Shown in pieces: positions 20,490-34,793 of a stretch of DNA of 64,000 bases. The DNA is taken from NCBI RefSeq assembly GCF_013415885.1, contig NZ_CP058910.1, forward strand, positions 3,038,001 through 3,102,000, written 5' to 3'. Under the pieces are notes generated by a model. It saw only the letters and a list, made by a program, of their open reading frames with translations, was not told the origin of the DNA and searched no databases. How positions within the stretch are numbered: the stretch's first letter is position 1; every line of letters begins with the position of its first letter. The DNA is from Halosimplex rubrum. GTDB taxonomy: Archaea > Halobacteriota > Halobacteria > Halobacteriales > Haloarculaceae. Position numbers and translations under genes: made by a program.

Positions 20490-21200
20490 TCATCCGCTTG
20501 CGCGAGCGAGCGCCGGCGCTTCGGAACCGGCCGGCGTCGCCGCGCCGGTCGGCGTACTCGTCCCGTTCGGTGCGGGTGTGCCCTCGGGTGCGGCGGTGCC
20601 GTTCGGTCCCGGCGTGAGCGTTCCGTTCGGCGCAACCGTCCCGTTGCCCGGCGTCGCGGTGCCGTTGGGCGGCGTTTCGGGGGTCTCCGCGCCCGGTGTC
20701 GGCGTCGGCGTGGGGGTCGGGGTCACAGTCGGCGTGGCCGTCGGCGTCGCAGTGGGCGTCGGCGTCGCGGTCGGCGTCGGCGAGGGCGTCGGGTCCGCGG
20801 GTCGGCGGTCGAGGACGAGCCGGTCGCCGCCCGAGCCGTTCCAGACGACGTAGAGCTGTTCGTAGACCGCGCCGGGGACCCGACACTCGCTGCCGCGGGT
20901 GATGTTCTCGACCGGCGTCGCACAGGCCCCGTCGTCGGTGCCGGCGAAGGTGCCGAGTCGTCCGCGAGTCGCCGACTCGACCGAGACGTGCGAGCCGTTG
21001 AGGCGGTCGCCGCCGAAGTGGGTGACGACCACGTCCGTCCCGTCGGACTCGAAGACGAAACTCGCCCGCGGGCGGTCCGGGTCGGTCGGCCCGCCCGAGA
21101 TGGACGTGACCAGCGACATCGCCAGCAGCACCGCCGCCAGCGCCATCGCCAGCAGGACGGCGTTCTCCGAGACCCCGCGAGCGCCCCAGCGTCCGTTCAC
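20490..21200 (-). CDS. Type IV pilin-like protein with Thr/Pro stalk
   Basis: A 236-residue protein. The N-terminus ARG followed by VSENAVLLAMALAA is an archaeal class III (prepilin peptidase) signal with hydrophobic helix. A small beta domain with a Cys pair (GACATP, SECRVPG) follows to about residue 128. Then comes a run of T-P repeats and at least six NGT glycosylation sequons to the end. It is probably assembled or anchored at the surface. No other pilus gene is adjacent. Confidence 0.8.
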   Translation of the reverse strand: MNGRWGARGVSENAVLLAMALAAVLLAMSLVTSISGGPTDPDRPRASFVFESDGTDVVVTHFGGDRLNGSHVSVESATRGRLGTFAGTDDGACATPVENITRGSECRVPGAVYEQLYVVWNGSGGDRLVLDRRPADPTPSPTPTATPTPTATPTATPTVTPTPTPTPTPGAETPETPPNGTATPGNGTVAPNGTLTPGPNGTAAPEGTPAPNGTSTPTGAATPAGSEAPALARASG

Positions 21201-30845: not shown

Positions 30846-30971
30846 CGTTCCGGTGTCCCGGGCGCGAGTGGGGGTTCGTACTCGCGGAATTTCGGGTCCT
30901 CGCCCGTGTCTCCGGTAGCAACTTACTTGTAGGTGAAGCCGAAAGAAGGGGGCGAAACAGTCACTGGGCGT

Positions 30972-32105
30972 ATGAGCAGGACGTTCTACGGCGTCCTCGG
31001 GGTGAGACCCGGCGCCGACGAGGAAGCGATCCGCGCCGCCTACCGCGAGCGCGTCAAGGAGCACCACCCGGACGTGAGTTCGGATCCCGACGCCGCCGAC
31101 CGGTTCAAGCGGCTGACTGCCGCGAAGGAGACGCTCCTCGACGCGGCCGAGCGCGCCAGGTACGACCGGCTCGGACATCGAGCGTACGTCGGGTCGCACG
31201 CCGACTCGTCGCTCTGGACCACCGACTCCGCGACGGGAGCGAGCGCGCCGCCCGACGACGGACCGACGACAGGGGGGACTGGCTCCCGCGGCGCGGCGAG
31301 CGACGGCGGCGACGCGGCGGCCGGCCGGCGCCGGACTCGCGACCCGGGGGCCGGTCGGAGTCGGACCCGCGACGGGACCGGCCGTTCGTCCCGGTCGACG
31401 AACGCCACGGCCTCGAAGCCCGACGACGATGCCGACGGGGCGACGGGCGGGACCGCGCGCGCCCGTTCGACGGGTTCGGGCGTCGGTCCCGGTTCGTCGG
31501 GTTCGACCGGACCCCGCGACAGCGAACCGTCGAACGGCGGCGAACGATCGGCGGGTGGTGAACCGTCGAACGGCGACCAGTCACCGAGCGGTGACGACAC
31601 CGAGACGGCCGGTTCCGGCGCGACGGCGTCCGAGCGGGCGAACGACGGGTCGGCGTCGAGGGCGACGAAGAGCGCGACAGCGTCGGGGACGACGAAGAGC
31701 GAGACGGCGCGGGCGGACGTAGCGGATCGGGGGACGGACTCCGGGAACCGACGGCGTCGTCGCGCGAGCGTCGGGACGGCGACCGACGGGACGCGGCGGC
31801 GTGAGCGGTCGTCGGGCTCGTACGCCACGACCAGCTTCTGGGATGTCACCGAGGAGCGCCCGAGCCCAGGGCGGTCGTCGCGGTCGGTGACTCGCCGCGC
31901 GCTCGCCGCGCTCCGCCGGCTCGGCCCGTGGGTTCTGGTCCACGTCCTGTTCCTCTCGCTGGCGGTCGGGACCGGCTGGTACGTCTACACCGTCGTCCTG
32001 CCGCCGGCCGAGCGGTCGGTCGCGCTGCTGTTCGTACTGATCGGCGAAGTGGGGGTCGCGGCGGTTCTGTCGTCGTTGCACATACTCTCGCGGCTCTACC
32101 GATAA
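30972..32105 (+). CDS. Membrane-anchored DnaJ-domain protein
   Basis: A 377-residue protein. Residues 1-65 are a J domain with HPD at 32-34, which stimulates an Hsp70 ATPase. Then come over 200 residues rich in Ser, Gly, Asp, Arg and Thr. Two transmembrane helices follow at the C-terminus (about 318-375). It lacks the Gly/Phe, zinc and substrate domains of DnaJ, so it would recruit DnaK to the membrane. ATG 30972 starts the J domain. A T-rich stretch at 32150-32160 may end its transcript. Confidence 0.82.
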   Translation: MSRTFYGVLGVRPGADEEAIRAAYRERVKEHHPDVSSDPDAADRFKRLTAAKETLLDAAERARYDRLGHRAYVGSHADSSLWTTDSATGASAPPDDGPTTGGTGSRGAASDGGDAAAGRRRTRDPGAGRSRTRDGTGRSSRSTNATASKPDDDADGATGGTARARSTGSGVGPGSSGSTGPRDSEPSNGGERSAGGEPSNGDQSPSGDDTETAGSGATASERANDGSASRATKSATASGTTKSETARADVADRGTDSGNRRRRRASVGTATDGTRRRERSSGSYATTSFWDVTEERPSPGRSSRSVTRRALAALRRLGPWVLVHVLFLSLAVGTGWYVYTVVLPPAERSVALLFVLIGEVGVAAVLSSLHILSRLYR

Positions 32106-32198
32106 CGGACGCTGGGCGGTCCTACGCGCGATCCGAGCTTCAAACGAGTTTTTGTCTTTTGGGAAAGCCCATTATGGTCGGCCATCTGTGCTAGGGCA

Positions 32199-33353
32199 AT
32201 GGGTCGTCTGCTGCCGTTCAAGTCGGAGCCGACGCGGACGCCCGACGAGCCGCGAGTCCTCGACCTCGACGACGATGCGACCGAGGAGGCGCTGTCCGCG
32301 CTCTCGTCGGACACCGCGCGGAAGATCCTGGCGACGCTGTACGAGGAGCCGAAGACGCCGCCGGAGATCCGCGACGAGGTGGGCACGTCGCTGCAGAACG
32401 TCCACTACCACGTCGAGCGTCTGGAAGCGGCCGAGCTGATCCAGCCCGCCGGCGAGGGGTACTCCGAGAAGGGCACGGAGATGACCATCTACGCGCCGGC
32501 CAGCGAGGCGCTCGTCCTCTTCGCCGGTCGGGAACACGACCGATCGCGCCTGAAGACCGCGCTGACGCGCCTGCTCGGCTCCGTCGGCCTGCTCGCCGTC
32601 GCGAGCCTCGCGGTTCGACGGCTGTTCGGCGGGTCCGGGGCGAACCTCGGCGACTACGGCGTCTCGTTCGGGATGGGTTCGCAGTCCGGCGCCGAGCGCG
32701 GCGCCGACGACGGCGGTGACGGCGGGGGAGCGGGCGGTGGCGACGGCGCTAGCGATGCTGGCGGTGGCGACGGCGGCGACGCCGGTGCCTCGGGCGGCGA
32801 CGGCGGCGGAGCCGGTCCGGAACCGGAAGACGACGCGGTGACGTCGACGACGACCGACGGCGGCGACATCGGTATCTTCGGCGGCGAGGACACGGCGACG
32901 GACACTGCCGGGGCCACCCCGAGCCCGACGCCCGACCCCGCGACCGCGACGCAGTCGACGCCGGCCGCGACGGAGGTGCCGTCCGCCACGCCGACGCCCG
33001 CGGGCACTCCGTCACCGACGCCGGCCGGGACGCCCACGCCCGCAGCGACGCCGAGCCCGACCGTGACGGCCACGCCGACGGCGACGACGACGCCCACCGC
33101 GACGCAGACGGCGACGCCCCAGCCGACCCCCACGACGACGGAGCCGCCCTCGCCGACGCCGACCGAGACGGGCATGGACTCGGGGACGATCACCCTCGAC
33201 ACCGCCACGCAGGTCCCTGCGGAGACGGTCGACGGCGCCCGTCGTGTCGCCGGGAGCGGCGACTCGCTGCTGGCCGACCCCGCGGTCGCCTTCTTCCTCG
33301 GCGGGCTGTTCATGCTCCTCGTCGTCACCGCCTGGTGGTACGTCCAGAGCTGA
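32199..33353 (+). CDS. Membrane-anchored winged-helix regulator with Thr/Pro stalk
   Basis: A 384-residue protein. Residues 25-110 are an ArsR-like winged helix (SSDTARKILATLYEE, TSLQNVHYHVERLEAAELI). A hydrophobic helix follows at about 122-139. Then come a Gly/Asp stretch, a long Thr/Pro repeat (about 245-327), and a last membrane helix (362-382). The HTH faces the cytoplasm and the stalk probably lies outside. CATTATG about 26 nt upstream fits a TATA box. It may pass a surface signal to DNA. Confidence 0.78.
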   Translation: MGRLLPFKSEPTRTPDEPRVLDLDDDATEEALSALSSDTARKILATLYEEPKTPPEIRDEVGTSLQNVHYHVERLEAAELIQPAGEGYSEKGTEMTIYAPASEALVLFAGREHDRSRLKTALTRLLGSVGLLAVASLAVRRLFGGSGANLGDYGVSFGMGSQSGAERGADDGGDGGGAGGGDGASDAGGGDGGDAGASGGDGGGAGPEPEDDAVTSTTTDGGDIGIFGGEDTATDTAGATPSPTPDPATATQSTPAATEVPSATPTPAGTPSPTPAGTPTPAATPSPTVTATPTATTTPTATQTATPQPTPTTTEPPSPTPTETGMDSGTITLDTATQVPAETVDGARRVAGSGDSLLADPAVAFFLGGLFMLLVVTAWWYVQS

Positions 33354-33473
33354 CGGCCCGACGCGGTTCGATCGAGCGGTCGCGCTCCCGGCGACCGCTT
33401 CGGCGGCACCGGTCGGCGGTGCCGGCCGGCCGCGATAGCAAGTCGTATGGGCCAGTCGCGGCAAGGGCTCGGT

Positions 33474-34793
33474 ATGAACGTGCGACGAGTGGACGCGCTG
33501 GACCCCGGCGAGCGGGCCGCGCTGTTCGACCGCGACGCGGGGGTCGACGCCGTCCGCGACGACGCCCGCGACATCGTCGACCGCGTGCGGTCCGAGGGCG
33601 ATGTCGCGATCAGGGACCTCTCGCGTGAGATCGACGGCGTCGAGGTCGGGAACGTCGACGTGACCGACCGCGTCGAACGCGCCGCCGAGGCGATCGACGA
33701 GGAGACCCGCGCGGCCATCGAGGACGCGGCAGCCAACATCCGCGAGTTCCACGAGCGTCAGCTGCCCGAGGACTGGACCGAGGACTTCGGCGGTCGCGAA
33801 CTCGGCCGACGCTTTCGGCCGCTGGACACGGTCGGCGTCTACGCCCCCGGCGGAACGGCCGCCTACCCCTCCAGCGTGCTGATGGGCGTGATCCCGGCGG
33901 TCGTCGCTGGCGTCGAGCACGTCGCCGTCGCGACCCCGCCGGCCGAGGAGATCAACCCGGTGACGCTGGCGGCCGCCGACATCGCCGGCGCTGACGCCGT
34001 CTACCAGGTCGGCGGCGCCCAGGCCGTCGCCGCGCTCGCCTACGGCACCGAGACGATAAACGCCGTCCAGAAGGTCGTCGGTCCCGGCAACCAGTGGGTC
34101 ACCGCCGCCAAGGCCGAAGTCCGGGGCGACGTGGAGATCGACTTCCTCGCGGGGCCGAGCGAGGTACTGGTCATCGCCGACGGGACGGCCGACCCGTCGC
34201 TCGTGGCGGCGGATCTGGTCGCCCAGGCCGAACACGGCGAGACGAGCTCCGTCGTCGCCGTCACCGACGACGAGGCGACCGCCGAGGCCGTCGCCGCGGC
34301 CGTCGACGACCACGCGACGGGCCGCGACCGCGAGGAGACGATCCGCGCGGCGCTCGACAACGACGCCAGCGGCGTCTTCCTCGCGCGGTCGATGCCCGAG
34401 GCGGTGCTGTTCGCCGAGGAGTACGCCCCCGAGCACCTCTCGATCCAGGCCGACGACGCCGAGGCGCTGCTCGACCGCATCCCGAGCGCCGGCAGCGCCT
34501 TCCTCGGCCCCTACAGCCCGGTCGCGGCCGGCGACTACGCGACCGGGACCAACCACGTCCTCCCGACAAACGGCAAGGCCCGTGTGACCGGCGGGCTCTC
34601 CGTCGACACCTTCCTGCGGTCCACCACCGTGCAGCGACTCTCCGAGGACGCGTTGGGCGACCTGCGCGACACCGTCACGACCTTGGCCAACGCCGAGGGG
34701 CTGGAGGCCCACGCCCACAGCGTCGACGCGCGCCTCGAGGCGGGCGCCGTCGACGGGGACGAGGACTCCGACGCAGACGGTACCGGCGAGTAG
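33474..34793 (+). CDS. hisD: Histidinol dehydrogenase
   Basis: A 439-residue enzyme oxidising histidinol to histidine in two NAD steps with zinc. Marks are VGVYAPGGTAAYPS, VGPGNQWVTAAK, DFLAGPSEVLV and the catalytic Glu-His in EEYAPEHLSI. ATG 33474 is chosen over an upstream ATG at 33447 because the family begins with the NVRRVDAL segment. A 15-residue acidic tail ends the protein. It stands alone. Confidence 0.95.
   Translation: MNVRRVDALDPGERAALFDRDAGVDAVRDDARDIVDRVRSEGDVAIRDLSREIDGVEVGNVDVTDRVERAAEAIDEETRAAIEDAAANIREFHERQLPEDWTEDFGGRELGRRFRPLDTVGVYAPGGTAAYPSSVLMGVIPAVVAGVEHVAVATPPAEEINPVTLAAADIAGADAVYQVGGAQAVAALAYGTETINAVQKVVGPGNQWVTAAKAEVRGDVEIDFLAGPSEVLVIADGTADPSLVAADLVAQAEHGETSSVVAVTDDEATAEAVAAAVDDHATGRDREETIRAALDNDASGVFLARSMPEAVLFAEEYAPEHLSIQADDAEALLDRIPSAGSAFLGPYSPVAAGDYATGTNHVLPTNGKARVTGGLSVDTFLRSTTVQRLSEDALGDLRDTVTTLANAEGLEAHAHSVDARLEAGAVDGDEDSDADGTGE

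Follow-up and report, generated by a model that had tools for sequence, protein, structure and literature searches.

Transcription regulators that join a DNA-binding domain to at least one membrane segment in a single chain are widespread, one survey counting 1,384 of these transmembrane transcription regulators (TTRs) in 367 archaeal species (PMC10269533). Archaeal membrane regulators acting on surface structures are represented by ArnR and ArnR1 of Sulfolobus acidocaldarius, which have a helix-turn-helix at the N-terminus and two membrane helices at the C-terminus, with palindromic boxes and surface structures as targets (PMC6396743). Little is known of the means by which archaea monitor their envelope. 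The literature that we searched, with most subscription papers outside its scope, contained no haloarchaeal envelope-stress transcription factor, and searches on haloarchaeal membrane-anchored regulators, on SIMPL proteins and on the site reported below yielded no account of the present system, which is not proof of absence; HVO_1552 of Haloferax was named nowhere in that same literature and has no function on record there. Further, in the TTR survey (PMC10269533) the terms 'Halobacter', 'haloarchaea' and 'ArsR' have no match in the main text, and no targets or site for the HVO_1552_C family were seen there. A SIMPL-domain protein of Haloferax volcanii is listed with positive fold changes in an oxidative-stress response table (PMC12482152).

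We analyzed a 64-kb stretch of the Halosimplex rubrum genome (hereinafter the window), in which an ORF with an ATG start codes for a 384-aa product comprising, in order, a winged helix, a membrane helix, a 218-residue disordered loop that is first Gly/Asp-rich and then Thr/Pro-rich, and a last membrane helix. Our preferred reading, with a probability of roughly 0.7, is that this protein is an autoregulated, membrane-tethered one-component regulator that binds TCAAA-N6-TTTGA and controls a small envelope regulon; the binding, the dimeric state, the sign of control, the signal and the outer position of the loop are the parts of this picture that we infer. A role in the cell envelope is suggested by a DNA signature common to the regulator's own promoter and to surface genes. 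The features of the window that bear on this reading are the following:

20490-21200, minus strand: pilin-like protein with a Thr/Pro-rich tail and 8 N-glycosylation sequons (Pilin_N 18.5, below the Pfam cutoff of 25.2)
30933..32105, plus strand: J-domain protein with C-terminal hydrophobic segments, the conserved upstream neighbor (16 of the 48 rows of clade A, delineated below)
32140..32155, no strand assigned: operator-like palindrome TCAAACGAGTTTTTGT, one mismatch to TCAAA-N6-TTTGA, centered about 51 nt before the start codon
32162..32176, plus strand: probable BRE/TATA region in the promoter of the regulator gene, an aligned CCCTTT-type element deduced from composites of aligned sites
32199..33353, plus strand: membrane-tethered winged-helix regulator of the HVO_1552_C family, 384 aa (ORF, Pfam, relatives, AlphaFold2)
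32271..32498, plus strand: winged helix, residues about 25-100 (Pfam, AlphaFold2)
32403-32405, plus strand: codon of the recognition-helix His69 (residue alignment)
32541..32639, plus strand: predicted membrane helix 1, AlphaFold helix 115-147 with hydrophobic core 121-139 (hydropathy, AlphaFold2)
32634..33203, plus strand: predicted outer low-complexity part, Gly/Asp-rich at 146-232 and Thr/Pro-rich at 233-335 (composition, relatives)
33270..33347, plus strand: predicted membrane helix 2, residues 358-383, inside the best HVO_1552_C stretch (Pfam, hydropathy, AlphaFold2)
33447..34793, plus strand: hisD, histidinol dehydrogenase, the conserved downstream neighbor (clade A rows)

The regulator matches, above their cutoffs, the two Pfam domains of the Haloferax HVO_1552-type proteins: HTH_20 at residues 35-81 (E 4.9e-11, 42.9 bits, gathering cutoff 27) and PF24267 HVO_1552_C (36.6 bits, gathering cutoff 27), with the best stretch of the latter at residues 341-382. 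It differs from the 98-position HVO_1552_C model in having its two membrane segments 218 residues apart. Of the 19 aligned relatives, 16 match HVO_1552_C too, at E ≤ 0.001. The gene belongs to a curated family of a known kind to which no function is attached, and the predicted envelope regulon, site and specificity residue appear to be new. The first-pass annotation had described an ArsR-like DNA-binding domain; this holds at the level of the fold, the best Foldseek matches of the winged helix being PH1932, an ArsR homolog of P. horikoshii, and the Pyrococcus furiosus heat-shock regulator, but not at the level of the ArsR family itself, since the Pfam HTH_5 match is weak (E 0.23). The ArsR/SmtB metalloregulators, which share the winged-helix fold, possess a metal-binding cysteine motif. 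A metalloregulator was rejected for the H. rubrum protein, which has no cysteine and scores 23.5 bits against the NCBIfam HTH_metalloreg cutoff of 55, though it might have non-thiol metal sites.

With regard to the membrane-associated parts, hydropathy (Kyte-Doolittle, 19-residue window) peaks at residues 121 (1.84) and 358 (2.18), the maxima elsewhere being -0.005 in the loop and 0.81 in residues 1-110. The AlphaFold2 model features a confident winged helix at about residues 25-100, separated by 14 residues (from the last wing strand) from a helix at 115-147, and a second helix at 361-383; residues 148-353 lack structure except for one turn at 349-351 and mostly have a pLDDT below 50; the mean pLDDT is only 56, in keeping with a protein over half of which is disordered, from an input alignment of 19 sequences. 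Hydropathy, conservation and the model together point to the insertion of helix 1 in the membrane. The loop spans residues 140-357 and is strongly biased in composition, with 33 Gly and 14 Asp in 146-232 and 36 Thr and 24 Pro in 233-335. Its coding is genuine, because GC at codon position 3 is high (0.84-0.96) and the gene is kept in all 8 genomes of the genus. An antisense ORF at 32654-33739 was dismissed as a shadow ORF, given the high third-position GC and the conservation of the plus frame.

A survey of the domain layout among relatives, as the first-pass annotation had proposed, gave 151 distinct proteins from 164 loci. Past residue 100, at least two membrane segments are predicted in 127 of these, one in 7 and none in 17. 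In relatives that have at least two such segments, Lys and Arg make up 9.0% of the N-terminal part and 2.7% of the loop. Charges were counted in the 126 relatives with exactly two membrane segments (one of the 127 has three and was left out): net charge is zero or below in 125 of the 126 loops, and in 113 of 126 proteins the segment preceding helix 1 has a higher Lys/Arg content than the loop ends. Being poor in Lys/Arg and without net positive charge, the loop fits a location outside the cell. The earlier description of a membrane helix, a Gly/Asp and Thr/Pro stretch and a final membrane helix was borne out, and the charge distribution in the relatives supports its one-component layout, in which the DNA-binding domain would face the cytoplasm and the linker the exterior.

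The H. rubrum regulator, with its predicted membrane insertion, therefore has the parts that define the TTR class (PMC10269533). It shares two C-terminal membrane helices with ArnR and ArnR1, but these lie 218 residues apart; ArnR has HAMP and sensor domains before its membrane helices, for which the H. rubrum regulator has no Pfam match; and the ArnR boxes are of the form TCGAC-N5-GTCGA rather than TCAAA-N6-TTTGA (PMC6396743). The targets that would correspond to the surface targets of ArnR are predicted ones.

The family is prevalent across the haloarchaea: a match at E 1e-25 or better was found in 367 of 391 genomes drawn from the class, and at E 1e-15 in 33 of 38 genomes of a chosen subset, with several members in the H. 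rubrum genome itself (4.48 Mb, single contig). In a quick tree, the window gene falls in clade A (48 rows, support 98), apart from the paralog groups L002 and L003; the rows of clade A include four short copies without membrane helices. Also counted as they stand in this clade are two metagenome copies, L070 and L074, in which the frame appears to shift after the Gly/Asp-rich part, likely through assembly or sequencing errors in GC-rich repeats. Within the genus Halosimplex (the label used here for the eight genomes of group g1, H. rubrum included, since the named close relatives of the protein are Halosimplex species), all eight genomes keep the gene.

These comparisons bear on the question of what is sensed. 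The first-pass annotation had proposed that this layout could sense the cell surface; in one form of this idea the outer stalk itself would do so, by glycosylation, S-layer contact or tension. The loops of all eight Halosimplex proteins are 193-230 residues long with the same composition, and the predicted lipoprotein targets described below bear similar Thr/Pro or Gly/Asp tethers, both of which would suit a sensing stalk. However, the loop ranges from 13 to 230 residues across relatives and is the fastest-changing part of the regulator within Halosimplex. Its composition also differs between groups, being rich in Thr/Pro/Ser/Gly in Halosimplex and in Asp/Glu in much of family f3. Moreover, inside clade A itself five proteins (L057, L075, L039, L046 and L071) have loops of just 13-16 residues while still retaining the palindrome upstream. 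The winged helix and both membrane helices are conserved in this clade while loop length varies; thus, the conserved signaling parts are more likely the two membrane helices, and we consider the stalk as the sensor doubtful. A stalk forming the conserved core of the protein was rejected on the loop lengths, whereas a link to the surface is supported by the predicted targets. The likeness of the stalk to the pilin-like protein at 20490 proved to be one of composition (Thr plus Pro fractions of 0.58 versus 0.53), and homology was rejected; that protein has 8 N-glycosylation sequons and the regulator has none.

Upstream of the regulator gene, we identified a palindrome whose copy at 32140-32155 is the only match to TCAAA-N6-TTTGA with at most one mismatch in the 64 kb of the window, against 0.13 expected. 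This relationship between gene and palindrome extends across clade A. First, a match with at most one mismatch lies within 200 nt upstream of 43 of the 48 genes (mean of 0.3 in shuffles), and an exact one upstream of 20 (0.05 in shuffles). Second, the spacing of the half-sites is specific: gaps of 4, 5, 7 and 8 gave 0, 0, 1 and 0 genes, against the 43 at a gap of 6. Third, in most of these genes 48-52 nt separate the center of the palindrome from the start codon. Four of the five genes without the palindrome are the short copies without membrane helices. This last pattern bears on a version of the mechanism in which a signal would trigger proteolysis in or near helix 1, leaving the winged helix free to act in the cytoplasm. 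The family does include short soluble copies (L004, L082, L083, L086 and L087), and a disordered outer loop would be a plausible protease target; yet the palindrome is absent from four soluble copies, and we judge release by proteolysis to be rather improbable.

The conserved gene neighborhood suggests a different candidate target. The hisD gene follows on the same strand within 200 nt in 31 of the 48 rows of clade A (and is in the fetched stretch of 36), a neighbor confined to this clade and seen beside no row outside it, which might point to control of hisD and histidine synthesis by the adjacent regulator. In the window, however, no palindrome with at most one mismatch precedes hisD, and the sites elsewhere precede envelope genes with no his gene among them; hisD was therefore rejected as a target, and we hold this explanation to be very improbable. 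On the other side of the regulator, the adjoining J-domain protein, with its hydrophobic segments, would likewise be a membrane protein, and the two may be functionally linked.

We then turn to the sites genome-wide. The H. rubrum genome has 5 exact sites versus 1 for the reversed control pattern, each of the 5 followed at 50-53 nt by an ORF whose product is exported or a membrane protein:

L170: small membrane protein
L171: SIMPL/DUF541 protein (E 6e-39)
L172: vWA-domain lipoprotein
L173: lipoprotein
L174: GT87 membrane protein

Sites with one mismatch in this genome include those of the regulator itself, L003, the lipoproteins L175, L233 (DUF4349) and L235, and others; allowing one mismatch gives 38 sites versus 22 for the control, a modest excess with many sites outside promoters. 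Exact sites are in clear excess in relatives, with 40 versus 3 in the genus Halosimplex and 104 versus 18 in 20 further clade-A genomes. All 40 genus sites, and 60 of the 104 others, were examined for ORFs. In Halosimplex, a coding-like ORF starts 47-56 nt from the center of 33 of the 40 sites, 28 of these coding for exported or membrane proteins and 8 having a lipobox; in the other genera the corresponding numbers are 35 of 60, 24 and 11, and 25 of the 60 sites lack a fitting ORF. At random positions in the same loci, ORFs were found at 110 of 1000 (30 exported, 0 with a lipobox) and 160 of 1500 (27 and 0). The gene-based background in the window is 3 lipobox and 20 exported genes of 56; beside the sites it is 5 and 34 of 145. 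The spacing is likewise constrained: of the 51 exported ORFs found 30-100 nt from a site in the clade genera, 46 begin at 49-53 nt as against 18 of 225 at random positions, with start codons of target ORFs chosen by rule and, for this count, the start nearest 51 nt taken at sites and random positions alike.

Homology searches place the same genes behind the site repeatedly: among the 8 genus genomes, SIMPL in 7, GT87 in all 8 and the small membrane protein in 6, with SIMPL and the small membrane protein recurring there in other genera too. The predicted target set is dominated by exported, lipid-anchored or membrane proteins, and the genes behind exact sites also include six clade-A regulators from other genera. 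In one further genome (L245, G380), two nearby SIMPL-type lipoprotein genes each have an exact palindrome at 49-52 nt. At 7 site loci without a convincing ORF, no RNA family was detected at gathering score.

The palindrome could instead be read by another protein, such as the L003 paralog or a soluble copy, with the tethered regulator merely one of the genes controlled. Several family members coexist in the H. rubrum genome, and L003 has the same His69 and a site of its own, TCAAAGCGGGATTTAA, 57 nt before its start codon and near-identical to the clade-A palindrome; the regulon may thus be shared with, or belong to, L003. More generally, TCAAA-N6-TTTAA or its complement is present at 55-58 nt upstream in 6 of 6 genes of the L003 group, while no such upstream site was found in any of the 8 genes of the L002 group. 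Genomes without a recognized clade-A gene (those whose best family matches, where placed, fall outside clade A in the quick tree) still have 38 sites versus 11 for the control, and 7 of the 16 examined precede exported proteins, SIMPL among them; accordingly, other family members or a further factor must use similar sites. Against a different reader stand three observations: the palindrome precedes 43 of the 48 clade-A genes over many genera; in a g34 genome, the gene of a family member with a similar site of its own directly precedes a lipoprotein gene that has an exact site; and residue 69 and the site change together in the f3 clade. We therefore regard another reader as unlikely, though less so than proteolytic release.

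The last of these observations concerns the recognition helix. Residue 69 is His in 44 of 44 clade-A proteins (the four soluble copies left out) and 6 of 6 L003-group proteins, and Arg in 21 of 21 f3 proteins. It covaries with the site, His going with TCAAA and Arg mostly with TRAAA-N6-TTTCA, which in the f3 clade lies mostly at 55-59 nt upstream. The TGAAA-N6-TTTCA version occurs 58 times versus 6 for the control in f3 genomes, where 9 of 19 examined sites have an ORF at 47-56 nt, all 9 coding for exported proteins and 4 having a lipobox; in the 20 clade-A genomes it occurs 35 times versus 9, and among 19 examined sites an ORF lies behind just 1, with no lipobox, so that in genomes with His69 this version shows no link to promoters. 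Such a pattern would be expected if residue 69 read the second base directly, although the independent contrasts are few and His69 and Arg69 amount in effect to two phylogenetic contrasts.

Returning to the autoregulated, membrane-tethered regulator, we propose that its winged helix would reside in the cytoplasm, carried on membrane helix 1, with the disordered acidic and Thr/Pro-rich loop outside the cell and helix 2 returning the C-terminus. The fixed 16-bp palindrome suggests a dimer, which would probably be the form that binds TCAAA-N6-TTTGA and regulates its own gene along with those of the SIMPL/DUF541 protein, the lipoproteins, the GT87-type membrane protein and the small membrane proteins. 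In this picture, a change in the membrane or at the surface would affect how the membrane helices pair and thereby the spacing of the two winged helices of the dimer, and the long stalk may tune or add to this input. As to the sign of control, composites of the site-linked promoters show a T-rich element some 15 nt beyond the site, which places it about 28 nt ahead of the start codon. In archaeal promoters, a position upstream of the BRE/TATA region suits activators rather than TATA-blocking repressors. Since the site lies directly upstream of this region in leaderless-looking promoters, activation is favored, and the regulator probably acts as an activator.

If this reading is correct, it provides a named regulator family, the DNA site and target genes that go with it, and a specificity prediction that turns on one residue. 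It would also add an archaeal regulator that acts on surface genes while seated in the membrane, with a role comparable to that of ArnR and a different layout. A broader version, which we put forward tentatively, is a class-wide haloarchaeal envelope response run by the tethered family from TCAAA-N6-TTTGA (His69) or TGAAA-N6-TTTCA (Arg69) sites, in which the Halosimplex stalk might imitate the tethers of the target lipoproteins, undergo the same export, glycosylation or proteolysis, and so report the load of these lipoproteins at the surface.

Two further sets of family-linked sequences were observed. Just behind the L002-type paralog in 7 of 8 Halosimplex genomes (L017-L022; C1:711336-711351 in the H. 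rubrum genome), T(C/G)AAA-N6-TTTGA occurs with a TATA-like element and points into DNA that has no convincing ORF and lies antisense to a phosphoesterase-like gene; this DNA perhaps encodes a small RNA or leader. Outside clade A, the family members L334, L336, L337 and L338 have different shared upstream sequences, CGCAAATACGTTTCG and ACAATAGGGGTTTCGC, which are possibly operators of their own.
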